DNA of 49,190 nucleotides from a virus. Under the pieces are notes generated by a model. That model was not told where the DNA came from. It ran no database searches and saw only the letters and a list, made by a program, of their open reading frames with translations. The stretch lies in the IMG/VR virus record IMGVR_UViG_3300012532_000001, positions 1 to 49,190 of that record. One strand, given 5' to 3'. Both the position numbers and the translations under genes were made by a program. How positions within the stretch are numbered: the first letter of the stretch is position 1; each line of letters starts with the position of its first letter. Of this stretch, positions 4,642 through 49,190 are shown piece after piece.

Positions 4642-6512
4642 TGCAACTCTTCCATCAGCAGCAAATATTCGTCATGCCTTCCATCATACGCGATCTGTCG
4701 CCGCCATGCCAATGACCCGTAGGGAGTCGTTTCGCGCTCGATCAACTTCTTGTTCGCCCCGCGCTCCTTGGCGATGAGCCAGCACAGCGCGTCGGGTATC
4801 ACCCGATCGGCGTGATTCATCATCGCTCCAGATGGATCGTTCGTAGACGCCTCCGTGTTATGCTGGATCCGGCCGGTGGGACCGTATCGGAAGTCCAAGC
4901 ATTCCCTGATCGCCCATTCCGAGTAATTGGTGAATTTGCGCCCTTGCAGACCGTCCCGGTATTCTTCGAGCAGGTCGCGCTTGGTATCGACTGTGCTGGC
5001 CCATCCTGGTGTCGTCGACACTGTGTGCTTTAGATCATAATCTTGGGTGCGGAAATAGATATGGAGGTAGCCAAGATTAACAACAGTGCCACCGAATACA
5101 AGGCCTGGTCCTGGCGTTTCCCAGATCAATTTGGCTCCCGTTCCAGTGACAGTCTTGAACAGTCTAGCCAGTGCCACGCATAGAACCGCGAATTCCTTGG
5201 GAAAAATCCTGGCATTGGCGTATTCCCCGATCCGCTCCCCGGTGACGATGTTGAAGATGGAAGCGCATGAGGGAGTGGCGCCCATGCCGGTTGAAACATC
5301 CTGGCCGATCACGTACACACCTTCGGGTGGCATGCCGTTGCTGTCGGGGTTGATCCAGAGCCTCAAGAGTCCGCCAGCTCGAGAAGTCAGACGTTCGGGG
5401 ATGCCAAGATCCCGGTCATAGGCCAGATCGCCTTCCCAAATATGTTCCCTGCATCCTGCCAGCAAGCGCTGGATCATGATCGAATCGAATACTTGGCTGA
5501 CCGATCCCTTGGGATCGATGTCAAGGTGCATCGCCACGTCGCGCTTGGAGCCGCGGCGAACGCACTCCTTGTCGTACCATGGGCTCCTGATGCACGGGAA
5601 TGGGCCCCCGGTTGGCTCACCCGTCATGACGAAGTGGTAATCCGGCGGGAATTGATAGGTCTTGTCGAGGATTTCCACGGCGCCAGTGGACGGGACGTAA
5701 CGGTACAGCCCATTGTTCTTGTCTGGATGTTCAGACCAGTGCCACGTCTGCTGGATAAGTTCAGGCCGGTTGCACAAATCGTAAAATGCCGTGCCCGTGC
5801 CGTAATGGGTGCCGTTGAAGACACGGCAGCCAACATCGGCCGTGTTGCCAAGGATCGCGTAATCGTCTTGCTGCTTGGAAAACTCGTCGAGGAACAAGCC
5901 TGTCGAGCGCCCGCCAACGCTGGACCGATCGGTGGTGCTGGTGCCATTGATCGATGACCGGCTGAGTGGATAGGCGATGGCCAACTTGCGCTTCTTGGCC
6001 TGCGGAAACCATTTGGGCAGATGCTCGTTGATGAAGGTGAGTTTCGGGAAAAGGGAATTTGGGTCGGCCGATGAATCCACAGCTTTTTCGCTGTGGCTCA
6101 TGTCGATGAAGTTCTTGTGCTTGTGGAACCGGCATACCCAGTCCTGAATGATGAGCATCCACCACGTCGCCCCCATTTCGCGGGACTTCTGGATCAGCAT
6201 GTCTTCGCGGTTCCATATGCACCACATGATGCCGGCCGTGCGCTTGCCATCAATTACCTTGAGCGGCTCGAACAGAGACGCCTCCTGAAAATCCCAGGTG
6301 ACGAACGGCCCTACTTCGTCGTCGATCTTGGCAGGATTCGTCTGCCAGCAAAAAGCATTGACATAGAACAGCAAATCCTGCCGGCAGGCCGCGACAATGG
6401 CCTCGCGGTGCTTGGCGCTCTGCCGCGACCAGAGCAGCAATTCCTTGCGGTACTCGCGGTTCTCTTTGAGCGCCCTGGGGACGTGTTCGTGGTGTTTGCC
6501 TTGGCCGAGCAT
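4638..6512 (-). CDS. terL: Terminase large subunit
   Basis: The product is 624 residues from ATG 6512. This ATP-driven motor packages DNA into the prohead and cuts the concatemer. The ATPase domain is N-terminal: a P-loop-like KSREMGATW at residues 109-117 and Walker B GLFLDE at 205-210, with the catalytic Glu at 210. The nuclease domain follows: YVIGQDVSTGMG with acidic D395, LIWETPGPG, and a late acidic cluster near NHADRVIPDALCW. Length and order are typical. A palindrome sits just before the start. The packaging type (cos, pac or headful) cannot be told from this alone; the lack of physical ends favours headful or circular permutation. Confidence 0.92.
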   Translation of the reverse strand: MLGQGKHHEHVPRALKENREYRKELLLWSRQSAKHREAIVAACRQDLLFYVNAFCWQTNPAKIDDEVGPFVTWDFQEASLFEPLKVIDGKRTAGIMWCIWNREDMLIQKSREMGATWWMLIIQDWVCRFHKHKNFIDMSHSEKAVDSSADPNSLFPKLTFINEHLPKWFPQAKKRKLAIAYPLSRSSINGTSTTDRSSVGGRSTGLFLDEFSKQQDDYAILGNTADVGCRVFNGTHYGTGTAFYDLCNRPELIQQTWHWSEHPDKNNGLYRYVPSTGAVEILDKTYQFPPDYHFVMTGEPTGGPFPCIRSPWYDKECVRRGSKRDVAMHLDIDPKGSVSQVFDSIMIQRLLAGCREHIWEGDLAYDRDLGIPERLTSRAGGLLRLWINPDSNGMPPEGVYVIGQDVSTGMGATPSCASIFNIVTGERIGEYANARIFPKEFAVLCVALARLFKTVTGTGAKLIWETPGPGLVFGGTVVNLGYLHIYFRTQDYDLKHTVSTTPGWASTVDTKRDLLEEYRDGLQGRKFTNYSEWAIRECLDFRYGPTGRIQHNTEASTNDPSGAMMNHADRVIPDALCWLIAKERGANKKLIERETTPYGSLAWRRQIAYDGRHDEYLLLMEELQ

Positions 6513-6514
6513 GA

Positions 6515-6532
6515 TGAGGTGATTCTACCTCA
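6515..6532. promoter_or_regulatory. Palindrome abutting the terL start
   Basis: A perfect TGAGGT-N6-ACCTCA palindrome ends two bases before the terL ATG (6512). On the mRNA it would form a hairpin covering the initiation region, or it could be a protein-binding site. No other good ribosome site for terL is visible. Confidence 0.4.
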
Positions 6533-6925
6533 CCGCCCTCACAATTGCCTTCTCTCTTGGAGTGCCTTCAGCAAACTTAATGGCGTTCATGGCTCAACCC
6601 TCGATTTGCTTTCGACCTGGACAATTCTACGTAAGCTGGCTAGAAATTGAAACAGCCAGAGGGCCATTGAACCCCCTGTCGAAAACCAGAAAAGCCATGT
6701 TGCAACCGGAAATGGCCACTGCCGAAGAATCCGCGGATCAAGTGTGGCTGTCACCTGGAGCCGGTCGAGCAATCGTGTTTGGCCGGCAGGGCGCCCCGCA
6801 AGGCAACGCCCTTCGCCAGCCAACCGGACTGGCCGTGTGGTGACGCTCCTCGTCAACGAGGGGGAGAAAGAGGGGGTGCGCTCAGGCTGTCCTTGTGGAA
6901 GCGCAGCGGACGCAACCTCTGACCA
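6533..6925. other. Gap between putative terS and terL, no convincing gene
   Basis: Open frames exist on both strands (plus 6562-6843, minus 6587-6856), but neither has a ribosome site or a recognisable protein, and they overlap each other. GC-rich short inverted repeats occur (for example CCTCG/CGAGG near 6847-6860). Gaps between terminase genes often hold the packaging recognition site; that is a possibility, not a reading. Confidence 0.35.
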
Positions 6926-7450
6926 TCATCCCTTCCTTGATTCATGCCACCCCTCCAGCAACTCCATCAAATGCTCGTCCCCATGCACCACCCGCATCCC
7001 ACCCTCCTCCTTCCGCGCCTTCGCCTCCTCCCGAGCCAACAACACCGCCGAATAGTCCGACTCCAGCTTCGTCAGCAACTGTACGAATCCCTTGGGATCA
7101 TCAACCCAAATCTTCCGGTATCCACGCCGCGCGTCATTGTCCCACTCCGATCCAAACGACTGCACCCACTTCATCCCACGCACCGTCTCCGGCAACCCAC
7201 GCCATTCCAACGGCTCCTGCGGCTCAGGACCGGGGTCAATCCGCTCAGGAACCGATGCGACCGGCACCGGCAATCCAGCCGCCGCTATCGCCTTCATCTG
7301 CGCATCCGTCAATTGGAACCCAAATGACTTCTTCGCATTGTGCATCCCACGCCTGTCACCACGCTTGTTCAACGGCATTTTTGGCGGCTCTTCAATAGCC
7401 ACAGAAGAGCCATTTTCAACAGAAACACCAGTTTCGGCTGCTGCCGGCAT
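6926..7450 (-). CDS. Putative terminase small subunit
   Basis: The product is 174 residues from ATG 7450, chosen because AGGAGGT lies six bases upstream; longer starts lack this. It has a disordered Pro/Glu/Ala-rich N-terminus with KKSFGFQLTDAQMKAIAAAG, then a middle with WVQSFGSEWDNDARRGYRKIW. The end is helical: DPKGFVQLLTKLESDYSAVL and a charged tail. It is upstream of terL in the same direction, which together with the helical C-terminal half suggests the small subunit that recognises packaging sites. No clear helix-turn-helix is visible, so the call rests mostly on position. Confidence 0.45.
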   Translation of the reverse strand: MPAAAETGVSVENGSSVAIEEPPKMPLNKRGDRRGMHNAKKSFGFQLTDAQMKAIAAAGLPVPVASVPERIDPGPEPQEPLEWRGLPETVRGMKWVQSFGSEWDNDARRGYRKIWVDDPKGFVQLLTKLESDYSAVLLAREEAKARKEEGGMRVVHGDEHLMELLEGWHESRKG

Positions 7451-7729
7451 AGAACTACCTCCTGTTCCCATCCTACCACCCAATGCCGTTTCAGCCAGAG
7501 TTCAACTTCTAACGGTTCCACACCATGACTTAGAACCTCGTCTGAAACTGCGCCTGTATCTGGTTTTAGGGAAGTTAGTTAACTCCCCCCACCACCCGCC
7601 ACAAACCCCCACCCGTCCGGTTACAACGTCATAGATCGCGCGCGGTCTTTGATTTCATTGGGTGAAACTCGATCGAGTTGACAAAAAAACAAGGGTAGAT
7701 GGGTGAAAAAATCACACAAGGGGAACGCT
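7451..7729. promoter_or_regulatory. Divergent intergenic region with a 14-bp palindrome
   Basis: This 279-base gap separates the minus-strand packaging genes from the plus-strand cassette. It contains the perfect palindrome AACTCGATCGAGTT (7666-7679) overlapping TTGACA (7678-7683), which could be a plus-strand -35 box; no good -10 follows at normal spacing. The palindrome is a candidate operator. No gene was seen in the gap. Confidence 0.4.
7714..7724 (+). promoter_or_regulatory. Shared leader ACACAAGGGGA, copy 1 (ribosome site)
   Basis: This 11-base sequence ends 5 bases before ATG 7730. Exact copies occur at 8003-8013 and 9584-9594, each just before the start of another small plus-strand gene. 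The AAGGGGA core acts as the Shine-Dalgarno sequence and fixes these starts. Confidence 0.75.
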
Positions 7730-7960
7730 ATGTGCCAGAGCTGCGAGCAGTTACGGATCAACGGAGTAGTGTGCCACGAGTCAGGTTGCCCTGATGCGTG
7801 GCGTCGGAAGGTGCAGTGTGCTTGGTGTGGGAGAGAGTTTGTCCCTGACTCTCGTGGCCAGCGGTGCTGTGAGCAGTCATGTGCGGCGTCGTTTGCCGGG
7901 CAGGAGGATGATCTGGAGTCGATGGAGGATTACACGATTCGCAGGCTTCGAAGCAGGTAG
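7730..7960 (+). CDS. Cys-rich mini-protein, putative zinc-binding
   Basis: The product is 76 residues, with the start placed at ATG 7730 by the AAGGGGA ribosome site; the upstream GTG at 7703 would run through that site. It contains CQSCEQLRINGVVCHESGC, then CAWCGREF, then RCCEQSC: paired cysteines and a His suited to two zinc knuckles. The acidic C-terminal tail ends YTIRRLRSR. It is the first gene of the plus-strand cassette. From memory, 'CxxCE.RINGxxCHExGC' mini-proteins occur in phages and in planctomycete genomes without known function. Confidence 0.7.
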   Translation: MCQSCEQLRINGVVCHESGCPDAWRRKVQCAWCGREFVPDSRGQRCCEQSCAASFAGQEDDLESMEDYTIRRLRSR

Positions 7961-7965
7961 GCGGC

Positions 7966-7982
7966 CTGCCCAACGTGGGCAG
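7966..7982 (+). terminator. Hairpin after the first cassette gene
   Basis: Perfect 6-bp stem CTGCCC/GGGCAG with a 5-base loop, a few bases after the stop at 7960. It has no T-run, so it may be an RNA-stabilising or partial termination element. Confidence 0.4.
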
Positions 7983-8017
7983 CCTGTCACAAGCCAGGAT
8001 TTACACAAGGGGATGCT

Positions 8018-8221
8018 ATGAGAACCTATCAAGTCAAGCGGTACAACGATGGCCAGGCGATCGGCAGCGTCGATCTGACCGCTGACCAATTCGCTCGATA
8101 CGAGAGGATCGCGCAGCAGCCGGAGGGGATCGTGCGGCTGGGAGCCATGCCCCACGATCTGTACAACCTCGACACCGAGTATCAGGACACGCATGAGGAT
8201 ACGTCAATCTACCTGGATTAG
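8018..8221 (+). CDS. Small acidic protein, unknown
   Basis: The product is 67 residues from ATG 8018, preceded by the second ACACAAGGGGA copy (8003-8013). It opens MRTYQVKRYNDGQAIGSVDL, then DQFARYERIAQQ, and ends in an acidic tail EYQDTHEDTSIYLD. It has no cysteine pairs, TM segments or catalytic motif. Small, acidic early phage proteins sometimes inhibit host enzymes; nothing here proves that. Confidence 0.65.
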   Translation: MRTYQVKRYNDGQAIGSVDLTADQFARYERIAQQPEGIVRLGAMPHDLYNLDTEYQDTHEDTSIYLD

Positions 8222-8238
8222 TGAAGGCTTCCAGTGCT

Positions 8239-8259
8239 GGGCCGCGCCCGAGGCGGCCC
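8239..8259 (+). terminator. GC-rich hairpin followed by a pyrimidine run
   Basis: Perfect 7-bp stem GGGCCGC/GCGGCCC with a 7-base loop, 17 bases after a stop codon. The trailing sequence reaches TTCCTTTT about 10 bases later. That tail (8258-8277) recurs with one change at 17561-17580. Confidence 0.5.
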
Positions 8260-8314
8260 TACGCTGGGTTCCTTTTACCTGTTTACAGTGGACCAATTGA
8301 AGCGGAGAAAGCTT

Positions 8315-9010
8315 ATGCGATACGAATTGACTGGAACGACGCTGAAGGTCATCCCGGAACCCTCTGATGATTGGACCGAAATGACCGCAGGCTACCGCGT
8401 CGAAATGGTCAAGGGTGCTGAGTGCTTGAGGTGCGGAGAGGTCTATCTCAAAAAGCTGAAAAAAACGGTCAATCTTTGCTTGCGGTTGGCGGACAAACCT
8501 GAATTGCATGGTATGGTCGTCGCGTGGAAAGTTGCGATCCAAGAAGAAGCAGAAGCGAAGAAAGCAGCCGCGCTCGCTGAACTCTCCGCAATACTTGACG
8601 GCTCGACTCCGATTGCCCTGGCGTATCACGACGGTGAGTACCTGTCAGGATACGAAGCATACGGACAGTCTGCAGATCTGCTGGTGAAGCTCGGAGTCGC
8701 AGAAGAAGTCTCAGGTTGGGGTGTCTGCGTTGACAACAAACTCGTGGAGGCCCTTAGTGCGACGTTTACCTATGCAGCAGCCCAAGAGTTCGCACGTCCG
8801 AAAATCGACGCCCACCAAACTCTCCGCGACGAGAGCGCTGCGAAGCGTGCTGCAATATTCGCGACCGCGAAAGAGACCGGGACTCCTGTGCTCCTGGCTC
8901 ACTGGATGGACAATTGCGACGATCCGCGCGAGGAATGCAGCACGGACAGCGTGACAGAGTATGCGATGCCGGACGGAACGACAGAAACAAAACGTCAGCA
9001 CACTTGGTAA
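8315..9010 (+). CDS. Hypothetical phage protein, 231 residues
   Basis: The start is at ATG 8315, with GCGGAGAAAG upstream; the open frame reaches back to 8234 but without a ribosome site. The N-terminal third is beta-rich (MRYELTGTTLKVIPEPSDDW) with one CLRC pair. The middle is a charged helix (EEAEAKKAAALAELSAIL) followed by a second compact region with WGVCVDNKLVEALS. The end holds HWMDNCDDPREECSTDSV. It is the largest gene of the plus-strand cassette. I do not recognise a family. Confidence 0.65.
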   Translation: MRYELTGTTLKVIPEPSDDWTEMTAGYRVEMVKGAECLRCGEVYLKKLKKTVNLCLRLADKPELHGMVVAWKVAIQEEAEAKKAAALAELSAILDGSTPIALAYHDGEYLSGYEAYGQSADLLVKLGVAEEVSGWGVCVDNKLVEALSATFTYAAAQEFARPKIDAHQTLRDESAAKRAAIFATAKETGTPVLLAHWMDNCDDPREECSTDSVTEYAMPDGTTETKRQHTW

Positions 9011-9018
9011 TCGGCCGT

Positions 9019-9228
9019 GTGGCCGTGCATCTCAATAGCGCGCCATACCTAGGCTTGCGGCTCGCCATCGAGCCAGAGTATCCGCAGGAATACCAGGACT
9101 ACTGGGCGCAAGTCGATTGGACGCCATGCCCAGTCTGCAGCGCCCCCGTGGTGTGGTATGAGGCCGGCTACGTCCCTGGATATCGGGTTTGTACGCGGCC
9201 GCCGCACCATCATTCAATCGCCAATTGA
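9019..9228 (+). CDS. Small Cys/His protein, possible zinc finger
   Basis: About 69 residues ending at 9228. The start is uncertain: in-frame TTG 9004, GTG 9019 and GTG 9025 are possible and none has a clear ribosome site; TTG 9004 would overlap the stop of the previous gene. The protein-like part reads EYQDYWAQVDWTPCPVC, then VWYEAGYVPGYRVCTRPPHHH. CPVC plus a later Cys and a His run could bind zinc. It is probably translated by coupling to the preceding gene. Function is unknown. Confidence 0.5.
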   Translation: MAVHLNSAPYLGLRLAIEPEYPQEYQDYWAQVDWTPCPVCSAPVVWYEAGYVPGYRVCTRPPHHHSIAN

Positions 9229-9252
9229 TCTGCGGATCCATCGAAAATGTAT

Positions 9253-9282
9253 TTGGCTAGCGCGTAACCGCAAAAATATACT
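9253..9282 (+). promoter_or_regulatory. Sigma70-like promoter before 9306
   Basis: TTGGCT (9253-9258), an 18-base spacer, then TATACT (9277-9282). The predicted start of transcription is about 16 bases before ATG 9306, leaving a very short leader that lacks a Shine-Dalgarno sequence. Confidence 0.5.
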
Positions 9283-9305
9283 TGATGCACTTTGACTAAT
9301 GTCTA

Positions 9306-9584
9306 ATGATGACACCATTTCTCTGTCCCAGGTGCGGTGCGTGGCACCTGGGACATCCTGGTAATGTCGCCGCCGGCGTCAGGCCATCGATCGGCAAATG
9401 CGGCCGGACGAAACGACGGTATCCTGACGAGGCCAGCGCGGCGGCGGCCGCGGCGCTGATCCTGGCGGATATGGCGCGGCGGGTGTCTGAGGAGCGGCGC
9501 CGCGAGTTGCTGGAAAAGCGAAGACCGTTGACGCCGTCCTCTGACCGGGGACGGCGGGTGATCCGTGATCCGAGGGGACTGTGA
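9306..9584 (+). CDS. Small zinc-knuckle protein with helical tail
   Basis: The product is 92 residues from ATG 9306 or 9309. It opens MMTPFLCPRCGAWHLGHPGN, where CPRC with a nearby WHLGH gives a Cys2His2-like knuckle. A basic stretch and a long Ala/Arg/Glu helix (ASAAAAAALILADMARRVSEE) follow, then a basic tail. The 'CPxCGxWHLGHP' signature is familiar from small proteins of phages of high-GC hosts, from memory. Nucleic-acid binding is likely; a specific role is unknown. Confidence 0.65.
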   Translation: MMTPFLCPRCGAWHLGHPGNVAAGVRPSIGKCGRTKRRYPDEASAAAAAALILADMARRVSEERRRELLEKRRPLTPSSDRGRRVIRDPRGL

Positions 9585-9601
9585 CACAAGGGGAAATTAG
9601 C

Positions 9602-9793
9602 ATGCGAGACAGGAATGGCCTTTCGATCCACACCGGCGACCGCGTTTCCGTGCAAACCACGGGAGCCGCAACCATGGCGACCGTGATCGACGCCCACAGT
9701 GATATGGCGCAGGAGCTTAAGTCGGTCCTCGTGCAGTTCGAGAACGGCACGGCGCAATACATGCCGCCAACGACCGTCGCCGTACAGCGTTGA
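9602..9793 (+). CDS. SH3-like small beta protein
   Basis: The product is 63 residues from ATG 9602, seven bases after the third ACACAAGGGGA copy. The sequence RNGLSIHTGDRVSVQ... TATVIDAH... LVQFENGTAQYMPPTTVAV has the strand spacing and 'GDRV' turn of SH3- or KOW-like barrels, which bind RNA, DNA or protein. It is followed by a strong hairpin at 9809-9836. No closer family was recognised. Confidence 0.6.
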   Translation: MRDRNGLSIHTGDRVSVQTTGAATMATVIDAHSDMAQELKSVLVQFENGTAQYMPPTTVAVQR

Positions 9794-9808
9794 TCCCTTG
9801 TGTCGCAG

Positions 9809-9836
9809 CGTGCCGGCCTGCCCAGGGTCCGGCACG
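9809..9836 (+). terminator. Hairpin after the SH3-like gene
   Basis: Perfect 8-bp stem CGTGCCGG/CCGGCACG with a 12-base loop, 15 bases after the stop at 9793, followed by TTGCATTT. Likely terminator or 3'-end stabiliser. Confidence 0.5.
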
Positions 9837-9867
9837 TTGCATTTACCCAATCAAAGGACGGTGAACG

Positions 9868-10092
9868 ATGGCGCACCCAAGCGGACCATGTACACGATGT
9901 GGCGTCGATTACCAACCAGAGGAACTGGATTTTCACTTGTGCTGCAAATGCGAGCGCGACCTGATTGCTGTTCGCGTCGTCGGCGATAATTGGGCTATCA
10001 AGGCTAAGGCCGCAACCAACTTGCTGGAATTCGCCGAGATGGTCTACAAGGAAGCGCAGGCCGTCATCTCCCTGGTGAAAGGCGGCGCGTGA
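9868..10092 (+). CDS. Small Cys-cluster protein
   Basis: The product is 74 residues from ATG 9868 (AAAGGACGG upstream). The N-terminal CTRCGVDYQPEELDFHLCCKC supplies two cysteine pairs for a zinc site. The C-terminal half is a plain helix (AATNLLEFAEMVYKEAQAV). Its stop overlaps the next gene (TGATG), so the two are coupled. Function is unknown. Confidence 0.65.
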   Translation: MAHPSGPCTRCGVDYQPEELDFHLCCKCERDLIAVRVVGDNWAIKAKAATNLLEFAEMVYKEAQAVISLVKGGA

Positions 10093-10286
10093 TGGACCCA
10101 TGGACCGACGATTTCTTCCAGCCGCGTGCCGAGCCGTCCTCGCTATTTGGCAACGACGTAGGGCACCTGCCCGAGCGCAGGACAGCTTTGTCGGCTGAAA
10201 AGGGCATCCCCATGCGGCTGATCCGCGGGTGCTTGGTGAAGGTGCAATGTGACCTGGCGGATTTGGAGGAAGTATCATGCCCGTGA
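10092..10286 (+). CDS. Hypothetical small protein
   Basis: The product is 64 residues from ATG 10092 (TGATG overlap with the gene before; GTG 10089 is possible). It opens MDPWTDDFFQPRAEPSSLFG and later reads PMRLIRGCLVKVQCDLADLE. No motif was recognised. Its last ten bases overlap the start of the next gene, giving a coupled run of three genes. Confidence 0.55.
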   Translation: MDPWTDDFFQPRAEPSSLFGNDVGHLPERRTALSAEKGIPMRLIRGCLVKVQCDLADLEEVSCP

Positions 10287-10558
10287 CCGTCAACCGCTCA
10301 CTGCGCCGTCTCAGTGCGGCCTCGATGTACAGCGGCGGCCGCCGCCGGGGCATCGTCATCGAAATCCACCCTGACGCCAATGGGCTGGGCAAGCCAGGGT
10401 CTGGGTTCATCGGCCTGCGCCTGTCAGGAATCAGGCGCTGCTATTACCTGCCAGTCGATTGGTGTTTCCGCGAGGCGGTCCGGGCTGATCTGGCACGAAC
10501 TCGGGCGGAACGCAAGCGGCTCCGGGCTGAGAAGAAAGCGAGATTGTCCGGTCGATGA
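10277..10558 (+). CDS. Basic small protein, putative nucleic-acid binder
   Basis: The product is 93 residues from ATG 10277, with a strong GGAGGAA site. An Arg-rich start (VTVNRSLRRLSAASMYSGGR) is followed by a beta segment (RGIVIEIHPDANGLGKPG), then YYLPVDWCFREAV. The end is a strongly basic helix (RTRAERKRLRAEKKARLSGR). Charge suggests DNA or RNA binding; no family was recognised. It ends the plus-strand cassette, converging with the VRR-NUC gene three bases away. Confidence 0.6.
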   Translation: MPVTVNRSLRRLSAASMYSGGRRRGIVIEIHPDANGLGKPGSGFIGLRLSGIRRCYYLPVDWCFREAVRADLARTRAERKRLRAEKKARLSGR

Positions 10559-10561
10559 GAT

Positions 10562-10993
10562 TCACGCCAGGATTGATTTGATATCGGCCCACATCTCCGG
10601 CGTCCACACGTAACACTCGACATTCGCTTCGGCCAGCGCCGACAGCCATTTGGTTTGGTCAGCGCTGGCCTTGTTCTTTCCCACCTTCAATTCAGCGGCG
10701 ACGATCCGCTTGCGGCGGACCATAAGCAGGTCGACGAACCCAGCCCCATCCCCTTGAACCGGCGTTTGCCAGTAAAAAGAACCGTCTTTTCGCTGCACTC
10801 TCACTGACCTGAAATGGGCCGTTCTCCACCCGGTCGACCGCGCCTCGCCGATGACCAGGGCCGTGAATTCTGACTCGCTCATCTTGGGCAGGGTGATCTG
10901 AGATGACTGGCCGGCCGGCATCGGCTGGACCTGGGTGACGACGACCCCAGGGGTTGCGAGGATCTGGGCTACCAATTCGGGGGGCAGCTTCAT
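10562..10993 (-). CDS. VRR-NUC domain nuclease
   Basis: The product is 143 residues from ATG 10993 (GAAAGGC upstream). The single VRR-NUC domain belongs to the PD-(D/E)XK nucleases, which cleave structured DNA such as flaps or junctions. Visible catalytic pattern: GDGAGFVDLL (D88), AAELKVGKNKAS (E101, K103) and ADQTKWL (Q113). Small stand-alone VRR-NUC proteins are common in phage replication modules. Its ATG overlaps the stop of the methyltransferase frame once that gene's frameshift is repaired, so the two were once translationally coupled. Confidence 0.85.
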   Translation of the reverse strand: MKLPPELVAQILATPGVVVTQVQPMPAGQSSQITLPKMSESEFTALVIGEARSTGWRTAHFRSVRVQRKDGSFYWQTPVQGDGAGFVDLLMVRRKRIVAAELKVGKNKASADQTKWLSALAEANVECYVWTPEMWADIKSILA

Positions 10994-17190: not shown

Positions 17191-17322
17191 CTATTTCTGG
17201 TGGAGTGCAGCACCCACGTCATCGTCGCGGAGAGTGTGCATCCAGCTAATAGGGTCTTTCAAGGCTGCGAGTGCCGGCCCATGATGCCCAGCCACATCGA
17301 CCCGTTCGCCCGGCGGAATCAT
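17191..17322 (-). CDS. Weak candidate small ORF, 43 residues
   Basis: The frame runs from ATG 17322 to TAG 17191, product MIPPGERVDVAGHHGPALAA then LKDPISWMHTLRDDDVG. GAGG directly abuts the ATG, which is too close for normal spacing. It is reported because this 490-base gap otherwise lacks genes. Confidence 0.25.
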   Translation of the reverse strand: MIPPGERVDVAGHHGPALAALKDPISWMHTLRDDDVGAALHQK

Positions 17323-17445
17323 CCTCGTCAATCCATGTACCAGCCTTCATCGCTGTGCTTGTCGCCTTGGCGGTCGGCAGGCTGCATGCCGTTCCAGTCT
17401 ATCCCATGACTGGAGATGGTTCCTGGCTGACAGGCTGCGGAATTT

Positions 17446-17501
17446 GAACAGAAGTAATTGATTACCAGCGACTTGCCGGTATAATGTGGTTACTTCTGTT
17501 C
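17446..17501. repeat. 12-bp perfect inverted repeat flanking a promoter-like element
   Basis: GAACAGAAGTAA (17446-17457) and TTACTTCTGTTC (17490-17501) are exact inverted copies 32 bases apart. On the plus strand the right arm is followed by GTTTTT, so the whole could be a plus-strand terminator. A partial inner stem (ATTACC with GGTATAAT, and GC/GC) adds structure. Confidence 0.6.
17458..17485 (+). promoter_or_regulatory. Plus-strand sigma70-like promoter inside the inverted repeat
   Basis: TTGATT (17458-17463), a 16-base spacer and a consensus TATAAT (17480-17485). Transcription would start near 17492 inside the right repeat arm and run toward a hairpin at 17508-17543. No plus-strand gene follows, so a small or antisense RNA is the only obvious product. 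Confidence 0.4.
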
Positions 17502-17507
17502 GTTTTT

Positions 17508-17543
17508 AAGAGCCAGGCTCACTTTACGGCGACCCTGGCTCTT
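17508..17543. other. 10-bp stem hairpin
   Basis: Perfect AAGAGCCAGG/CCTGGCTCTT stem with a 16-base loop, bounded by TTTTT on the left of the plus strand. A 22-residue minus-strand frame (17490-17558, MGGNSKSQGRRKVSLALKNE) reads through it but has poor initiation signals. The rest of 17323-17629 shows no gene. Confidence 0.45.
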
Positions 17544-17629
17544 ACTATTTCCGCCCATAACCTACGCTGGCTTCCTTTTATTTGCAAGTCTTTTCTTTAG
17601 AACGAGCCTCATTTCTGAAATCGGAATTG

Positions 17630-18394
17630 TCACTTGACTTCACACATCCGCTTGACAAGATCAGCAGCCGATTCTTGCAGCGTGATAGTTGTTGGCTTGA
17701 GAGCATCCCTCGCGACATCCAACGCGGCATCCCACGCGACGTCACACGCGGCATTACACGCGGCAGCCCTCGCGGCATCACTCGCGGCAGCACTCGCGGC
17801 ATAACACGCGGCATCACACGCGGCAGCCTTCGCGGCAGCCCTCGCGGCAGCACTCGCGGCAGCCCTCGCGGCAGCACACGCGGCATCCCACGCGGCAGCC
17901 CACGCGGCATCCTTCGCGGCAGCCCACGCGGCAGCCACCTGCTTCTGCGCATTGACGAGAATCGGTGTGGCCGCGATCAATCCATTCCAATCGACTATTT
18001 CAGGAACTGACGTTAATGCCGCAACGTGAACTGAATAGCGGTCGCCGCAAGCGGCCAGCCACGTTGGCGTGAATGTCCGCACTGTCCAATCAATGCACAT
18101 GAAGGAGCGGCGTTCTTCGATTTCTTTGTTGGCCTTAGTACTAATCGTCAAAGGAATCAGTGGCTTTAACAGCCGATCACGCTCAGTGTCGGTCGGCAGC
18201 GCATCATTCCACAAACGCATAAACTCACCGATAATCGGGCAGACACACTCCGGATGGTCGCTATGTGGTTCATCGGCGATATAGGCAGCAAGCTCCATGG
18301 CGCACAAGCCGTTGCTTCGATCATTGTGCTTACCATGTTGCAAGCTGATTGTCTTGATGAGTTTCTTCCAGCCTTTTCGCATGGTTTTCAGCAT
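17630..18394 (-). CDS. Ala-rich tetrapeptide-repeat phage protein
   Basis: The product is 254 residues from ATG 18394. The N-terminal domain (1-145) carries NGLCAMELAAYIADEP, HSDHPECVCPIIGEFMRLWN, LLKPLIPL and FTPTWLAACG. Residues from about 150 to 228 are a run of AAAX units in which the fourth residue varies (W, D, C, R, S, K, Y, N, L). A short end LQESAADLVKRMCEVK follows. The array is encoded by 12-base units of GCT GCC GCG plus a variable codon. I recall the 'HNDRSNGLCAMEAVAYIAGEP' family from phages and bacteria, sometimes labelled putative immunity protein. Actual role is unknown. Confidence 0.8.
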   Translation of the reverse strand: MLKTMRKGWKKLIKTISLQHGKHNDRSNGLCAMELAAYIADEPHSDHPECVCPIIGEFMRLWNDALPTDTERDRLLKPLIPLTISTKANKEIEERRSFMCIDWTVRTFTPTWLAACGDRYSVHVAALTSVPEIVDWNGLIAATPILVNAQKQVAAAWAAAKDAAWAAAWDAACAAARAAASAAARAAAKAAACDAACYAASAAASDAARAAACNAACDVAWDAALDVARDALKPTTITLQESAADLVKRMCEVK

Positions 18395-18409
18395 GATTGA
18401 CCTTTAGAG

Positions 18410-18622
18410 TTAGAGCAGCTTCGCCGCCGCTTGCCATGCTTCTTCCGGTGTGTAGCAAACCGAGCCGATGGGCTGCGGATGATTCATCTCGTGAATATTG
18501 GTGGTCGGGACCACAATCTCCCATCTGGGCGGCGAGCCAAAGATGCAGTGCAGCCGCGCTAGTGGGTAACGCTCGCGGACGCGGCTGATGTTCGCTTCGT
18601 GACGGACCTGATCTTTCGTCAT
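18410..18622 (-). CDS. Small hypothetical protein
   Basis: The product is 70 residues from ATG 18622, overlapping the exonuclease stop (ATGA). It opens MTKDQVRHEANISRVRERYP and later reads LHCIFGSPPRWEIVVP and CYTPEEAWQAAAKLL. It is a small alpha/beta protein without a recognised motif. The coupling to the exonuclease suggests a recombination-module accessory, by position only. Confidence 0.6.
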   Translation of the reverse strand: MTKDQVRHEANISRVRERYPLARLHCIFGSPPRWEIVVPTTNIHEMNHPQPIGSVCYTPEEAWQAAAKLL

Positions 18623-19260
18623 TGCATCCCCATGATCTTCTCAAGCGCTGCTGTGAATCGGCCATGGAACAGGTCCAGGGCCTCGCGGAGAGCGGCGGTG
18701 AATGAGTCGGGCGTGACGCGGACGAGCAGGGGCGGCAAGCCGTCGCAATACGATAAAAAATCACAGAACGGAAGCCCGGTCACAAGTAAGTGACCATGAA
18801 CTTGTCCGCGGTAAGCATCAGGAAGCCCGCCGTTGAGAAGGTAGCCGACATGGGCCTTCCCCTGAGGACACTTAATTTCTAAAGCCCCTTCCATGACTTC
18901 TGTTCCGGCGTCGGTCTTGCTGATAACGATTCCGTCAGGCGAACTCCCGGCCCTGCCGTCGTCGGTCACGATGAACCCGGTTTGCTTCACGTCCATTCCT
19001 GTTTGCAGCGAGTAGAATGCCCGCGCGGCTGGCTCGGAATCAACACCGTGGAGCATCGCCCGGCTCATCGGCGTTTGCAGATCGGAGAGCGGTCCAATGT
19101 GGAACACTTCCGCGATCAACTCCGCAATGTATTCGTCGGCCGCTGACGCCAGCTTCATCGTCTTGGGCGTGATGATGCGGTCAAAATTACTGGCCGTGGG
19201 AATGCCGCGGCGGGCTTCGAACCATTCTGGACTAAGTTGGACGCAATCATACTCCTTCAT
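18619..19260 (-). CDS. YqaJ/lambda-exonuclease-type recombination nuclease
   Basis: The product is 213 residues from ATG 19260, inside the end of the ERF gene with an AAGGGGGA site. It is a double-strand 5'-3' exonuclease that prepares ends for single-strand annealing. The family pattern reads LSPEWFEARRGIPTASNFDRI at the start, HGVDSEPAARAFY (E76), GRAGSSPDGIV (D109), LEIKCPQGKAH (E128, K130) and a last helix with YRGQVHGHLLVTG. Length is typical. Together with the adjacent ERF protein it forms a two-component recombinase like lambda Exo/Bet. The frame extends upstream to 19503 only as a shadow. Confidence 0.88.
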   Translation of the reverse strand: MKEYDCVQLSPEWFEARRGIPTASNFDRIITPKTMKLASAADEYIAELIAEVFHIGPLSDLQTPMSRAMLHGVDSEPAARAFYSLQTGMDVKQTGFIVTDDGRAGSSPDGIVISKTDAGTEVMEGALEIKCPQGKAHVGYLLNGGLPDAYRGQVHGHLLVTGLPFCDFLSYCDGLPPLLVRVTPDSFTAALREALDLFHGRFTAALEKIMGMQ

Positions 19261-20023
19261 AGCTGTCCCCCTTCGCCGGCGCCGGCTTGCGGGCCTTCTG
19301 CTTGTCCAGGGCCTTCTGGATCGTTGTGGCGATGAAGTCATGCCGGGCCGCTGCGATCTTCGCCACGCTGTCCACCTTCTCCGATTCCTTGAGCCACTTA
19401 ATGAACGACTCGCCACGGTCGGAGAACATGGCAATCTGTCTGGTGAATTCCTGGGCCTGTTCTTCCGTGATGGTGTCCGTCCGCCGGCAATCGTTGTCCT
19501 CATTCGTGACGACGATGTTCAAGGCGGCGCTCAGGCTGTATCGCTTCTGATAGCTGAGCCAGAACCCGTAAGCCTGGGCCAGCGTGATCTTCGTTTTGTT
19601 GGCGATGTCTTGCAGCACGGCCTGCATATCGGCAATCGGGATTGAGAACGGCCGATCCTCGACATGCGACCCAACGCGGAGATGGCAGACAGTGAGCGAG
19701 TGCCCGTTCTCAGCCTTCGGGAACGAGAATGACACCGATAGCTCACACTCGGCAGCGATGGGACCGGCCACAGCCCAAATGTCGTCGTAGCTGGCGAAAG
19801 CGTATCGGTCGGCAGCCCGGCCCTTGTGGATCATCGGGCACTTGGCTTGGAATCGCGTGAGGGCCTGGCTGAACTTCTCAGCAGCCTTCGTCTTGCGGTA
19901 GTCCTCGGCCAGCGCCATCATGCCGCGCAGCTCTTCAAGGCCAACTCCCTTGTCGATCATCTTTTCGACGATGACCAGCGGGTTAGCCGCGTCTTGAACG
20001 GCAACGGCTTGTGTATCGGCCAT
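19247..20023 (-). CDS. erf: ERF-family single-strand annealing protein
   Basis: The product is 258 residues from ATG 20023 with AAGGAGAA upstream. It anneals complementary single strands during phage recombination and end repair. It has an N-terminal helical part (LEELRGMMALAEDYRKTKA, FSQALTRFQAKCPMIHKG). The ERF signature RYAFASYDDIWAV and a beta-rich part with GHSLTVCHLRVGSH follow, then IANKTKITLAQAYGFWLSYQ with KRYSLSAAL. The tail KGDSYEG is forced by the overlapping start of the exonuclease gene. It is preceded by a tRNA and structured RNA. Confidence 0.85.
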   Translation of the reverse strand: MADTQAVAVQDAANPLVIVEKMIDKGVGLEELRGMMALAEDYRKTKAAEKFSQALTRFQAKCPMIHKGRAADRYAFASYDDIWAVAGPIAAECELSVSFSFPKAENGHSLTVCHLRVGSHVEDRPFSIPIADMQAVLQDIANKTKITLAQAYGFWLSYQKRYSLSAALNIVVTNEDNDCRRTDTITEEQAQEFTRQIAMFSDRGESFIKWLKESEKVDSVAKIAAARHDFIATTIQKALDKQKARKPAPAKGDSYEGV

Positions 20024-20056
20024 GGGACTTCTCCTTGTTGGCTGGAAAGTTCAAAT

Positions 20057-20130
20057 GGTTCCCGGCTATCATCACTCCGCACTCATAGTCGCCGCTCCTA
20101 GGATTATGCGGCTTTTTGTCACCGGGAACC
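20057..20130 (-). ncRNA. 74-base structured element closed by a 9-bp stem
   Basis: GGTTCCCGG/CCGGGAACC (20057-20065 with 20122-20130) encloses GCCGC/GCGGC and CTAT/ATAG inner stems on the minus strand, a three-way-junction shape of tRNA-like length. It has no T-loop or anticodon loop, so it is not a normal tRNA. It lies in the leader of the ERF gene, 34 bases before its ATG. Confidence 0.35.
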
Positions 20131-20140
20131 AAAGTTTATT

Positions 20141-20225
20141 GCGGCAGACCCAGCCATCAACCAGCAATCGGTAGATCGACGCTTGGGAGCGTTACCCATG
20201 CTTCACGATAGCCGTAGCCTGCCGC
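20141..20225 (-). ncRNA. 85-base tRNA-like element after tRNA-Ala
   Basis: It starts three bases after the end of tRNA-Ala and is closed by a perfect 7-bp GCGGCAG/CTGCCGC stem (20219-20225 with 20141-20147). It contains an ACGCT/AGCGT hairpin, but canonical D, anticodon and T arms cannot be drawn. It may be a decayed long-arm tRNA or an unrelated structured leader. Confidence 0.35.
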
Positions 20226-20228
20226 AAG

Positions 20229-20301
20229 TGGACCGTGTGGGAATTGAACCCACTACCTCCGCGTTGCAAACGCGGCGCTCTTCCAAATGAGCTAACGGCC
20301 C
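20229..20301 (-). tRNA. tRNA-Ala (anticodon UGC)
   Basis: A full cloverleaf on the minus strand, 73 bases. Acceptor stem GGGCCGT/ACGGTCC, D arm GCTC/GAGC, anticodon stem CCGCG/CGCGG with loop TTTGCAA (anticodon TGC), T arm GTGGG-TTCAATT-CCCAC, discriminator A. CCA is not encoded. It is the only canonical tRNA found in the window. Confidence 0.93.
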
Positions 20302-20485
20302 AGTTGCACGCCGCCGGTTACCGTCAGGTCCGGCTCTCCGCACCAATCCCGAAGACGGCTCACATAGGATTGGCAACGGACTTGTCAGGGGACGTGCGCT
20401 CCTGATCTTTTGCCGGCGCTCCTTTGGCCACGCCGCCGGCTCGCGTGTAACAGGGCGTGATTGAGTGCGCCCTTGCCTGGGAGTG
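20302..20485. other. Leader upstream of the tRNA, no gene seen
   Basis: This 184-base stretch separates the 20486-20686 gene from tRNA-Ala. It contains the 11-base direct repeat CACGCCGCCGG at 20307-20317 and 20429-20439, and several short inverted repeats. No reading frame with a ribosome site was found. Confidence 0.4.
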
Positions 20486-20686
20486 TCATCGCAAGCTCAA
20501 TTCACGTTCCGCAGCGGCAAAGTATTCCGCAAACGCCTCTTTGAGTTTGCGTCGGTTCAGTGGATCACCAGCCAATGCAGCTTCCGCGAGATGCCGGCCA
20601 AAATTGCCGTACCCGCCATTCCGCATTTCCAGCCAAACGTCTTGATCGTCAAAGGCGCGGCGTTCAGCTTCGGTTGTCGGATACAT
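20486..20686 (-). CDS. Small hypothetical protein
   Basis: The product is 66 residues from ATG 20686 (GAGGAGG seven bases upstream). It opens MYPTTEAERRAFDDQDVWLE and then is mostly helix (LNRRKLKEAFAEYFAAAERE). It overlaps the upstream zinc-ribbon gene by 23 bases in another frame. No motif was recognised. Confidence 0.55.
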   Translation of the reverse strand: MYPTTEAERRAFDDQDVWLEMRNGGYGNFGRHLAEAALAGDPLNRRKLKEAFAEYFAAAERELSLR

Positions 20687-20858
20687 CGTCGGCCTCCTCA
20701 CTCGGATCGTAATTGCTCACATTGCCACAGTCGTAACAGTCGCCAGCCGAATCAACCGCTTCCTCGACGCCGCACTTGGGGCACGTCGTCAGCGGAGTCG
20801 CTTCGGGCGGGTCGATAGGCGGTTCAGGGAAGTAGCGGCCACGGGGGAACATGCTCAT
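20664..20858 (-). CDS. Small zinc-ribbon protein
   Basis: The product is 64 residues from ATG 20858 (GGAGGGAG upstream; ATGA overlap with the gene before). TTCPKCGVEEAV and DCYDCGN provide two CxxC pairs about 15 residues apart. The tail is acidic (DPSEEADDVSDNRS). The Pro-rich start is RYFPEPPIDPPEATP. A small metal-binding early protein; role unknown. Confidence 0.65.
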   Translation of the reverse strand: MSMFPRGRYFPEPPIDPPEATPLTTCPKCGVEEAVDSAGDCYDCGNVSNYDPSEEADDVSDNRS

Positions 20859-21133
20859 GGCTGCTCCCTCCACATGAACTTGCACCAGCGGTACTTGCGG
20901 TCGCCAACCTGGATGTACTTATGGTCAGGCAGGATGGTCATTTCCATCCAATCGGCGTTGACGGCTTCTTCGGGTGTCTTGCCGTTGCCGTAGCTGACGG
21001 TCAGCAGCAAACCATCTCCACCGATGGCACGATCATGCGCTGACACATACCAATCTCCAGGAGCCCGCATGCACAGGCTGGTGTCGGTTATCGCTTGCAG
21101 CGCGGCTAACTTTTCTTCCCAAGTCATGCTCAT
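20855..21133 (-). CDS. Conserved small phage protein
   Basis: The product is 92 residues from ATG 21133 (GGAGGCAAG upstream). The pattern TWEEKLAALQAITD, LCMRAPGDWYVS, YGNGKTPEEAVNADW, YIQVGDRKYRWCKFMWRE matches a phage hypothetical family I know from memory, typically about 90-100 residues and early. Alpha/beta fold without catalytic signature. It is coupled to the ribbon-helix-helix gene upstream (ATGA). Confidence 0.65.
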   Translation of the reverse strand: MSMTWEEKLAALQAITDTSLCMRAPGDWYVSAHDRAIGGDGLLLTVSYGNGKTPEEAVNADWMEMTILPDHKYIQVGDRKYRWCKFMWREQP

Positions 21134-21300
21134 TTCTTGCCTCCATTGGCCAGAGCGTCCAGGCCGGCGGATACCACCTGATCGAAGAAGTCCTTGAACT
21201 TCAACCGGCGCTTGAGCGCCGCCATCTTAAAGCGCTGGATTGTTTCTGGCCGAAGAACGAACAGCATTTTAATGCCGTCCGAAGCTGTTGTTTTTTTCAT
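21130..21300 (-). CDS. Ribbon-helix-helix-type putative regulator
   Basis: The product is 56 residues from ATG 21300. The sequence KMLFVLRPETIQRFKMAALK then KRRLKFKDFFDQVVSAGLDA has the strand-helix-helix rhythm of Arc/MetJ-like DNA-binding dimers. There is no Shine-Dalgarno: the -10 box of the only visible promoter ends nine bases before the ATG, so the mRNA may be leaderless. It is the first gene of the early operon. A palindrome inside its promoter spacer could be its own operator. Autoregulation is inferred. Confidence 0.6.
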   Translation of the reverse strand: MKKTTASDGIKMLFVLRPETIQRFKMAALKRRLKFKDFFDQVVSAGLDALANGGKK

Positions 21301-21309
21301 GACGATGCA

Positions 21310-21338
21310 ATAGTAGGCACGCCTATTAAGTTAGACAA
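21310..21338 (-). promoter_or_regulatory. Early-operon promoter with palindromic spacer
   Basis: On the minus strand: TTGTCT (21333-21338), a 17-base spacer, TACTAT (21310-21315). The spacer holds TAGGC-GT-GCCTA (21314-21325). Upstream (21341-21372) is a very AT-rich stretch unlike the GC-rich surroundings, suited to an UP element or melting region. The rest of 21373-21479 has no clear gene; a 37-residue TTG-start frame at 21370-21483 is weak. Confidence 0.6.
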
Positions 21339-21479
21339 GTGCAAAAAGATATTTTATTAAACTTTATAACTAGAACGGTCTGATTTCCACTTTGGCCGAG
21401 AACGGAATCGTCGTCACATTGGGCGAACCGATTGCATCGGAGCTGCCTGATGACAAACTTGTTTGATTTACGGCGCGGC

Positions 21480-24400
21480 TCAACGGCGTACCGGCACATT
21501 CTGTCGTAAGCCAGGGATGCCGAGCTTAATGGTTTGCAGGAAGCTCTGCGGCCGTCGTTCTTGGAGTTCTCCGCGAGGTGTTTTGTCCATCTGCTGCGCC
21601 GCCCACTGAATGAGTTGGGGCACGGCTAATGACCTGGCGAGATTGCCTACAGCCTTAGAATTGAATCCATGCTCGAACATTCGCGCCACTTCTGTCTGCT
21701 CTCGAACCATCGGCACTTGTTCAACTAAAGCACCCATACCACGGGCCGTTCCTTCGACCAAGCCAACATCTTGACGCCGCGAGCCTTGCTCTGCTCGCCG
21801 GATTGTTGCCCCAAGTTGCAGCGCTATAAAGACAGGGTGATGCACTGTCGGCCAAGCCGGAATCGTCGCGGCCCCGATGCGCGTCTCGCCAGGGCGAAGA
21901 TCGTCCTCGCGGCGCCGGCCCGAATAAAACCCGCCAAGATTGGTTGCCGCATAGTACCCCAACGCTAAGAGCGGCAGACCAAGCGTCCCTTTCTTCATCA
22001 TCCTCATAATGCTGTCGGCCTGCTCTGGTTTTAGATTCTTGATGCCATGCCAGCCTGCCCAGGCCGCGCGACCGATGCCTACTGGCAAACCGCCAATGTG
22101 TTCCAGGGCGTCGGCCACGATGTTTGTTGGAGTCCGGCGAACCGGCATAAGCAGATCAAGGGTATGGCCGATAACCTTGGCAGCCGGCGAGTTTGTGCCT
22201 TTCTTGAGGCTGTTAATCATATTGTTGGTCGCCTCGACAACGGCATTGTCCTGCTGAAACTTGGCCCGAATCCCTTCTTGATATGCTCTCATTCCGATCT
22301 CGTGCAGCGCGGCCGGACTTGTGACATCGCGGCCAGCGGCAACCTCAGATGCCTCTATGTTCCGAAAGGCCCGCTCGTAGGCATTGCGAACTGCCGGAGC
22401 TTTCTCTGCGGCGTGCAATGTGCCGAAGAAATCCAGCCAGGTATAAGCCTGATCGTTGTTCGTGCCATATTGAACATCCAGTTCCGACCGGCCTTCTCGG
22501 ATCGTCTGCCAGGCATCCTTCGCCCCTTTGGTGACTGTGCCACGCAGCGCCGCTACCTCTACTGATGGACGCAGGCCGCGGCCCTCGACTGGAGCGCGCT
22601 GGGCGATTTGCCGAATGCCAGGGACAAGACGCAATGCCGAGCCGATCAACTCACGCACTGGCGGAGCCACTGTCTGCCAGACGCTCGACATTCCGACTTT
22701 GCCGATTGTGGCAGGACTGGAAATGACTTCGGCAATTCTCGCCCGTCGCAACCAGTCAAGCGTTTTCTGCGTTCTCGTCATGTTGTCCCAGCGATCGCCA
22801 GCAATTTGCCGGCCCCAATTCTGCTGCGACTTCATAGCGTCAATTCTGATTTGTTGCCATTCCGTAAACTCCGATCCCTTTGAGCCAGTGCCGGCTTTGG
22901 CCAACTTCGCTTCTGCGGCATCGAGTTTTCCTTGGAGTTCCTTGATCTGATTGCTCAGTTCAAGGATCTGCGCCTTTTCCTGGCCTGTCAAGGGGCGCTT
23001 CAAGGCCACTTCACGTTGCATCATCATCGAGGCAAGCGTGAAGTCGCGCTTGGCCAACTGGCCGAACCATTGCAGGGTTTGCCCAGCGCCAGTGCCACCG
23101 AGCTTGATAACGTCCATGACCTCACGGTTCTGACGCAGAAGTTCGCTCTCAAGAGCCGTCAACTCGGCAACCACTTTCGGATCGGCCTTGCCACCTGGAC
23201 GAATTTCTCCAATAAGCCGAAGCGCCGCCCGTTCATGTTGGTTGGCCAAGTCGATCTTGCGGTGGAGCAATAGGGCACCTTCATCAAGCGTAATCTGCCG
23301 CGGCTTGGCGAGAAGTTCTTGGACAAGACGAGCATCAACCCCAGGCTCGCGGGCGACGGCATCCAATGTCTTCGCCCATGTCTCGGCGTTTGGCCGGTGA
23401 ATTGTGCCTGGCGCTTCTGGCAAATGCAGGAAGGCACGCTCAAGATCAGCCTTGGCTTTGGCCAGTGCCGTTTCGTCGGGACGGAACTCAACACGTGCCG
23501 TTTCGGCGCCTTGCGGCGCAGCATAGGCTGTTATCTCTCGTCCGGCTGGCCCTCCAAGGGCGGCTGCATGCTCGGCCTCGCTGACTGGTCGGCCGAATCC
23601 AGGCTCGTTGGCCCCGAACGGGAAATCTGCCTCTCCAGCAGTCTCGCCTTGACCTTCCTCAAGTTCGCCGCGTCCTTGGCGAGCTGCTGCAATGTCGGAC
23701 TCTTGCTCACCTTCGGACCTTGCTCTTGCTTCGCCATCTCGCACCCTCGCTTCCAAAAGACGGGCTGATGCCTGGTTATAAGCGGTGTCGAGCGACATTC
23801 GCTCGGCGTGGCCGCTCGTGAGTAGGTCGAACAACTTCTGGGCGTTCTCGCTGCCGGCGTCCCTCGCGCCGCCTTCGACGTGTGTTCTCGGGAAGATGCC
23901 AGGGTGCTCAACTTCCATCCGGTCAACGAGTGTGTCGAAGCCTGGAATGGCTGCGTAATCTTCACCTGCATAACCCTCAATCCTGATGCCTTGCTTACGC
24001 AGCGATCGCCGGCCGCTGGTGATGATGCCAGCAATGTCGGGATCGACCGATTCGACACGAATCCTCTCAGCCTCGGCACGCAGGCCAGCAGTGTCCAAGT
24101 CCATGTCGCGGGCTTCAATGGCCCAGCTTTCGTGAACCTCGGCATCGCCGGATTCCCTTGCAGCACGGTTGGCGGCGTTTTCTGCCTGCTTAAGCGCCTT
24201 GCGGGCGCGCTTGACTTCCAGAGTTTCCTTGCCGCCGGCTTGGGCAACCGCAGCATCCAGTTTGGCCTTGGCCGCATCCCTAGCTCGGTCGGCACGCTCG
24301 TTCTGCTTGTAGAGTGGTGCCGAAGGCGGAACTGGCATTGAACCAAGCGGCTTGCCTGTCTGCTGGCTCTCGCGGTAGAGGCTGCCCTGTTCTTCGGGAG

Positions 24401-48779: not shown

Positions 48780-49190
48780 TCAACGTATAGCCTTTTTTCG
48801 AGCCGGTTTCTTCGCAACCTTTGGAACGTATACCACAAATTCACCTTTAACGTAGCCAATCGGCATACAACCTAACTTGTAAAGCTCAATCATCGGCGAC
48901 CATGGATTTGCTTCTGGCATTCCGGCGATTATCCACCTTGAATCGCGGCGCAGAACGTAGTACGGGCGCACGTACCAGCGACGGTAATGCCAATAAGTGA
49001 CTCTAAAAACGCCGCCGGCAGCGGCGGCGGCGGCGTCGGCGGCGGCGTCGGCGGCGGCGTCGGCGGCGGCGGCGGCGGCGGCGTCGTCGTCGGCGGCGGC
49101 AGCGGCGGCGTCGGCGGCGGCGTCGGCAGCGGCTTCGGCGGCGGCGGCGTCGGCAGCGGCTTCGGCGGCGGCGGCGTCGGCAGCGGCTTC
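48780..49190 (-). CDS. Ala-rich repeat phage protein, C-terminal part (continues at left window edge)
   Basis: The frame is open from 49190 to the stop at 48780, 136 residues. The first about 58 are the Ala/Asp/Glu tract. Then a unique C-terminal domain follows: GGVFRVTYWHYRRWYVRPYY, RDSRWIIAGMPEANPWSPMI, ELYKLGCMPIGYVKGEFVVY, ending basic (KKPARKKAIR). A GTG at 48971 would give a shorter product but has no ribosome site. The frame joins that of the CDS at 1-663 exactly. The 'NPWxPxxELYxLGCxPIG' ending is one I recall from the same repeat-protein family. Confidence 0.8.
   Translation of the reverse strand, partial: EAAADAAAAEAAADAAAAEAAADAAADAAAAAADDDAAAAAAADAAADAAADAAAAAAGGVFRVTYWHYRRWYVRPYYVLRRDSRWIIAGMPEANPWSPMIELYKLGCMPIGYVKGEFVVYVPKVAKKPARKKAIR
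49017..49190. repeat. GCGGCGGCGTC-type low-complexity tract (right half)
   Basis: Units of GCC, GCT, GAC and GAA codons (minus strand). Toward the edge it settles into a 27-base repeat, and the last 36 bases equal bases 1-36 of the window. Confidence 0.9.

Follow-up and report, generated by a model that had tools for sequence, protein, structure and literature searches.

An SD-type start-associated repeat in a block of small accessory genes of an unclassified phage, with a predicted coupling structure at one gene

The window analysed here, 49,190 bases in length, is an entire virus record and represents an unclassified phage. Its gene products include a terminase distantly related to other phage terminases, along with a DNA helicase, a primase-like protein, a DNA methyltransferase, an Erf-like annealing protein and a RecE-like exonuclease; weak matches to an SU10-type portal and adaptor were also found among the phage proteins. 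Flanked by packaging and replication genes lies a block of nine small, mostly uncharacterized genes on the plus strand (7730-10558), opposite to that of their neighbours, whose last member ends 3 nt from a convergent minus-strand endonuclease/resolvase-like gene (10562-10993). The plus-strand block is credible, since its ORFs exceed in hexamer coding score the minus-strand ORFs overlapping them, including one of 343 aa at 9379-10410, although g1, g4, g5 and g9 score low in absolute value. The composition of the block is unremarkable, as 20 of 184 windows of the same size deviate more. The genes and associated signals are the following:

7666..7679, no strand assigned: palindrome of 14 bp, AACTCGATCGAGTT, between the divergent genes upstream of g1
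7714..7724, plus strand: leader 1, ACACAAGGGGA, Shine-Dalgarno (SD) sequence of g1
7730..7960, plus strand: g1, 76 aa, 9 Cys, family pattern C-x2-C...CHESGCPDxWR...CxWCG
7962..7990, plus strand: hairpin after g1 (earlier placed at 7966-7982), weak, core CTGCCC/GGGCAG, no T-run
8003..8013, plus strand: leader 2, ACACAAGGGGA, SD of g2
8018..8221, plus strand: g2, 67 aa, no Cys, relatives none found
8223..8275, plus strand: hairpin after g2 (core 8239-8259), long and imperfect, ending in CCTTTT, terminator-like, z -3.8
8315..9010, plus strand: g3, 231 aa, without a leader copy
9019..9228, plus strand: g4, 69 aa, CPVC motif, 3 Cys
9306..9584, plus strand: g5, 92 aa, CPRCGAWHLGH, 3 Cys
9579..9592, plus strand: left arm of the predicted RNA panhandle, CTGTGACACAAGGG
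9584..9594, plus strand: leader 3, ACACAAGGGGA, SD of g6, its first base shared with the end of the g5 TGA
9602..9793, plus strand: g6, 63 aa, no Cys, weak YdfZ/small-barrel similarity
9795..9808, plus strand: right arm of the panhandle, CCCTTGTGTCGCAG, directly after the g6 stop
9805..9841, plus strand: hairpin after g6 (earlier placed at 9809-9836), strong, z -3.7, followed by ATTTA
9868..10092, plus strand: g7, 74 aa, 5 Cys
10089..10286, plus strand: g8, 65 aa, 3 Cys
10277..10558, plus strand: g9, 93 aa

A preliminary description of this DNA had recognized an opposite-strand block of small accessory-type genes sharing a leader, and our analysis supports it. The 11-mer ACACAAGGGGA is present on the plus strand at 7714-7724, 8003-8013 and 9584-9594, as had been reported, with no further exact copy in the 49,190 bases. 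Each copy precedes a small gene, with ATG starts at 7730, 8018 and 9602 and motif-to-ATG gaps of 5, 4 and 7 nt, respectively, and the downstream proteins are unrelated. Inspection of the regions upstream of the minus-strand genes identified CCAAAGGAGA, about 5 nt before the starts, as the SD motif generally used by this phage. The leader aligns with CCAAAGGAGA at this same Shine-Dalgarno position, and its predicted pairing with the anti-SD (-7.6 kcal/mol) approaches the median for minus-strand genes (-8.3 kcal/mol). Given this positional match and the comparable pairing with the 16S 3' end, the leader is most likely a ribosome-binding, start-associated sequence, neither a promoter nor a complete cassette end. 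Its AAGGGG would pair with the 16S 3' end and set the translation of g1, g2 and g6, a function to which position, spacing and pairing potential all point. In the predicted folds, leaders 1 and 2 stay largely unpaired.

The exact motif is not common at random, but with two mismatches allowed its frequency is at chance level (11 occurrences versus 11.8 expected). Nor is repetition alone notable, since Markov sequences of order 2 to order 5 yield 8-25 three-copy 11-mers per genome, compared with 15 observed. The clustering, by contrast, is notable: an 11-mer present three times on one strand inside 2 kb arose 0.03-0.13 times per genome in Markov simulations, and the single case observed is ACACAAGGGGA. 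When leaders were sampled from the SD motif, identical 11-mer triples among 46 genes were expected about 2e-4 times and appeared in 4 of 4000 simulations, a post hoc test whose motif model was built from few genes; all our statistics on the leader and the block are likewise post hoc. That three ordinary ribosome-binding sites followed by ordinary hairpins became identical by accident is a doubtful account, though one that deserves real weight. The two-mismatch frequency fits it, as do the fifteen 11-mers with at least three copies genome-wide, near the Markov expectation, and the many AAGGGG/AGGGGA-like SDs of this phage, e.g. those of the genes starting at 663, 42940 and 47159; it leaves unexplained the presence of three copies inside 2 kb, all preceding small ORFs, and a leader identity exceeding the SD model. 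This identity extends beyond the SD core into the ACAC part, which suggests that the three leaders share either common descent or a common purpose under selection.

Hairpins had also been described behind each of the three leader genes. Those after g2 and g6 are strong, whereas that after g1 is weak and lacks a T-tract; its 7-bp stem at 7966-7982 has a z of -1.9, which becomes -0.1 when folding begins at the stop codon. The hairpins after g1 and g6 have in common CGGCCTGCCCA, of which the genome contains only two copies. Post-stop hairpins are not specific to the block: those of g2 and g6 rank with the strongest in the genome, but the minus-strand genes 38432 and 39540 have comparable ones, the highest z-score strength being found after 38432, and the sole canonical T-tailed post-stop hairpin seen follows 44533. 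The hairpins after g2 and g6 would most likely end or protect transcripts. A perfect 12-bp hairpin was also noted in the start region of g5 (about 9324-9356, z -4.0), with a z-score at least as strong as that of any of the three hairpins described earlier.

A scan for the sigma-70 consensus gave 3 sites versus 1.4 expected, none of them directly upstream of g1, g2 or g6. The palindrome AACTCGATCGAGTT, which taken alone is not significant, is a possible operator. The final base of the g5 stop codon is also the first base of leader 3, which leaves g6 no room for a promoter of its own; this gene is most likely part of the g5 transcript, and the earlier notion of single-gene cassettes is thus only partly right, failing at g6. 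These observations bear on whether the block consists of classical morons, i.e. recently acquired genes each with its own promoter and terminator. Small accessory genes running against the prevailing strand, with strong, terminator-like hairpins after g2 and g6, resemble such elements. In contrast to morons, however, sigma-70-like promoters are lacking directly before the leader genes of the block, there is no T-run after g1, the composition is average, and g5 and g6 are joined as an operon. We regard a moron origin as very unlikely.

At g6 the leader is embedded in a longer predicted structure. Positions 9579-9592 and 9795-9808 are predicted to form a helix of 14 bp, one of them G-U, enclosing g6 from its SD to past its stop codon, and leader bases 9584-9592 pair with 9795-9803 at a predicted probability of 0.98-1.0. 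The panhandle is limited to g6: its duplex energy is -32 kcal/mol, compared with -8 to -21 kcal/mol for the other eight plus-strand genes, and the fold has a z of -3.0. Duplex energy alone makes the weaker case, since 1.1% of window pairs drawn at random are at -30 kcal/mol or below; the minus-strand gene 40331 reaches -31 kcal/mol. Helices of this length are expected by chance about twice per strand, and the unusual part is the exact flanking of a gene, for which our own arithmetic gives a chance of about 1e-3 for nine genes. In this fold leader 3 would be locked in the helix with bases past the stop of its own gene. The left arm includes the g5 stop codon, so that a ribosome finishing g5 would melt the helix and switch g6 on; the structure therefore predicts translational coupling. 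Such control of g6 by g5 translation, a new element of this analysis, is a prediction of the folding model. In RNA phages, control of the replicase by coat translation is a case of translational coupling through long-range RNA pairing. The predicted sequestration of the g6 start site and its opening by an upstream ribosome resemble that control, with the difference that g6, the controlled gene, would supply the pairing partner from its own 3' end.

The same complementarity allows another reading, in which the 3' end of g6, comprising CCCUUGUGU and the hairpin at 9805-9841, is a small RNA acting on the three leaders. Nine bases past the g6 stop are indeed complementary to all three, and the seed-plus-hairpin layout is like that of 3'UTR-derived small RNAs; yet the predicted pairing with g1 (-16.7) and g2 (-15.8) is unexceptional, other leaders reaching -19.8, and we hold such trans control to be extremely improbable. 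The reading we prefer, and consider reasonably probable, is that the nine small genes form an accessory operon, with a start-associated SD leader, panhandle coupling at g6 and hairpins that end or protect transcripts.

With respect to the products, the preliminary description of the block as rich in Cys mini-proteins applies to g1 (9 Cys), g7 (5) and g4, g5 and g8 (3 each) and not to g2 and g6 (none), so that g1 is the only Cys-rich member among the three leader genes. It belongs to a small zinc-finger-like family, in which CHESGCPDxWR is nearly invariant, with relatives of 47-57% identity in three phage contigs (L008-L010); there they always sit among small genes, and the leader is absent from these contigs. 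Similarity of g1 to NinG is weak and covers the second Cys half, and structure models of g1 and g2 are of low confidence (pLDDT 64). For g2, g3 and g6 no relatives were found in IMG/VR. Membership of g6 in the YdfZ family was not supported, its scores of 21.2 bits for TIGR03318 (cut-off 49.7) and 18.2 for PF14001 (cut-off 27) both falling below the curated cut-offs. The proposed roles in host takeover or anti-defence find no support: Pfam, NCBIfam and PHROGs returned weak matches only, whose functions are generic or unknown, and no match for the block came from PADLOC, a resource covering defence proteins and not anti-defence ones.

No close genome was found: megablast of 5-15 kb returned one 149-base match only, and scans of IMG/VR with the terminase and a probable capsid protein revealed no relative. 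Helicase relatives with 27-30% identity were detected in contigs L004-L007, none of which shares genes of the block. Three further candidate relatives (L023, L024 and L025) proved spurious on inspection.

A pattern scan of IMG/VR for the leader plus GCTATG recovered 12 stretches, six of them from one phage group. This group, which includes L012, L015, L018 and L021, is unrelated to the window phage and carries the same ACACAAGGGGA. In L012, the 60 nt upstream of the leader are 98% identical to L018 and 35% to L021, whereas the 300 nt downstream are 97% identical to L021 and 27% to L018. Exact identity with L018 covers 59 nt upstream and 24 nt from the leader start, and that with L021 covers 3 nt upstream and 86 nt onward, so that the switch falls inside the leader/start block. 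L012 may represent a natural replacement of one gene, with assembly chimerism possible in such metagenome contigs. By analogy, it illustrates what a swap by leader homology would look like, not that one occurred in the window.

Exchange of this type would use the leader as a short stretch of homology, with recombination placing small foreign genes one by one behind a ready start. The exact leader identity, exceeding what an SD needs, the L012 chimera with its L018-like upstream and L021-like downstream parts, and the Erf-like annealing protein and RecE-like exonuclease of the phage all argue for exchangeable cassettes. Against them, the searched collections gave no relative of the window phage showing gain or loss, the downstream ends behind the leaders are unlike, g5 and g6 are fused at the stop codon, the composition is not foreign, and the stretch shared in the L012 group (about 25-80 nt) exceeds 11 nt. 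On balance we consider exchange unlikely here, while giving it serious consideration. Integron cassettes are likewise one-gene units arranged in a row on one strand; in contrast to these, the block has hairpins that by eye are unlike attC sites, and no integrase was called among the scanned phage proteins. The leader block, then, has the appearance of a device for controlling translation and perhaps of a seam for swapping genes, but falls short of a proven set of exchangeable cassettes.

The closest known kind of element is the Start-Associated Sequence (SAS) of cluster K mycobacteriophages (Pope et al. 2011, PMC3203893), a short asymmetric repeat with an SD core located a few nt before the ATG of unrelated non-structural genes, in one orientation. 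SAS are conserved beyond the need for 16S pairing, may include the upstream stop codon and number 11-19 copies per genome, with an upstream shared inverted repeat termed ESAS; their function is unproven (PMC3203893). The leader agrees with SAS in position (an SD-containing repeat a few nt before unrelated starts, typically 3-7 nt for SAS, in one orientation), asymmetry, SD content and excess conservation, and differs in its three copies and in the lack of a shared upstream inverted repeat. The consensus also differs: the 13-bp SAS consensus GGGATAGGAGCCC has no match in the window at up to two mismatches and 6 at three (11.7 expected). Literature on phage leader-boundary cassettes and on hok fold-back contributed nothing used here. 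The feature is real but modest: a start-associated repeat of SD type within a small accessory operon, joined at g6 by a structure predicted to mediate coupling. A wider idea, which we put forward as rather improbable, is that start-associated ribosome-binding repeats double as recombination seams, the window being one case and L012/L018/L021 a captured exchange; if so, a short common SD leader would let phages place any small gene behind a working start. A similar start-associated arrangement in an unrelated phage and a leader-switching chimera elsewhere would link translation signals to gene exchange and make both testable, by reporters and comparative genomics.

Several minor observations concern repeats. 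L004, a 61 kb phage contig with a distant helicase/primase relative, carries at 17291-21536 about 28 copies of a 36-nt CRISPR-like repeat (GTGACRAYGGCTGAAAnnnGAGAAGTGTGTTGCGAG), variable mainly at three adjacent middle positions and with unique spacers; two arrays flank a 427-aa Cas12f/Cas12u3-like protein (18990-20273; PADLOC E 1.3e-13). At 6000-9800 of the same contig, three paralogous proteins, each made of 21-residue (63-nt) repeats, lie in tandem. The repeated 'leaders' of L004 were accordingly rejected as cassettes, being a CRISPR-like array and repeat-protein paralogues instead. In the window, an Rfam search detected no RNA family other than tRNA, the sole one being a tRNA-Ala (TGC) on the minus strand at 20228-20301. 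A tandem array of 12/36-base units occupies 17703-17936, within a minus-strand gene region. CGGCGG-type tandem repeats at 1-143 and 49016-49187 lie at both record ends and probably mark where assembly broke within a single low-complexity tract, the genome being circular or permuted.
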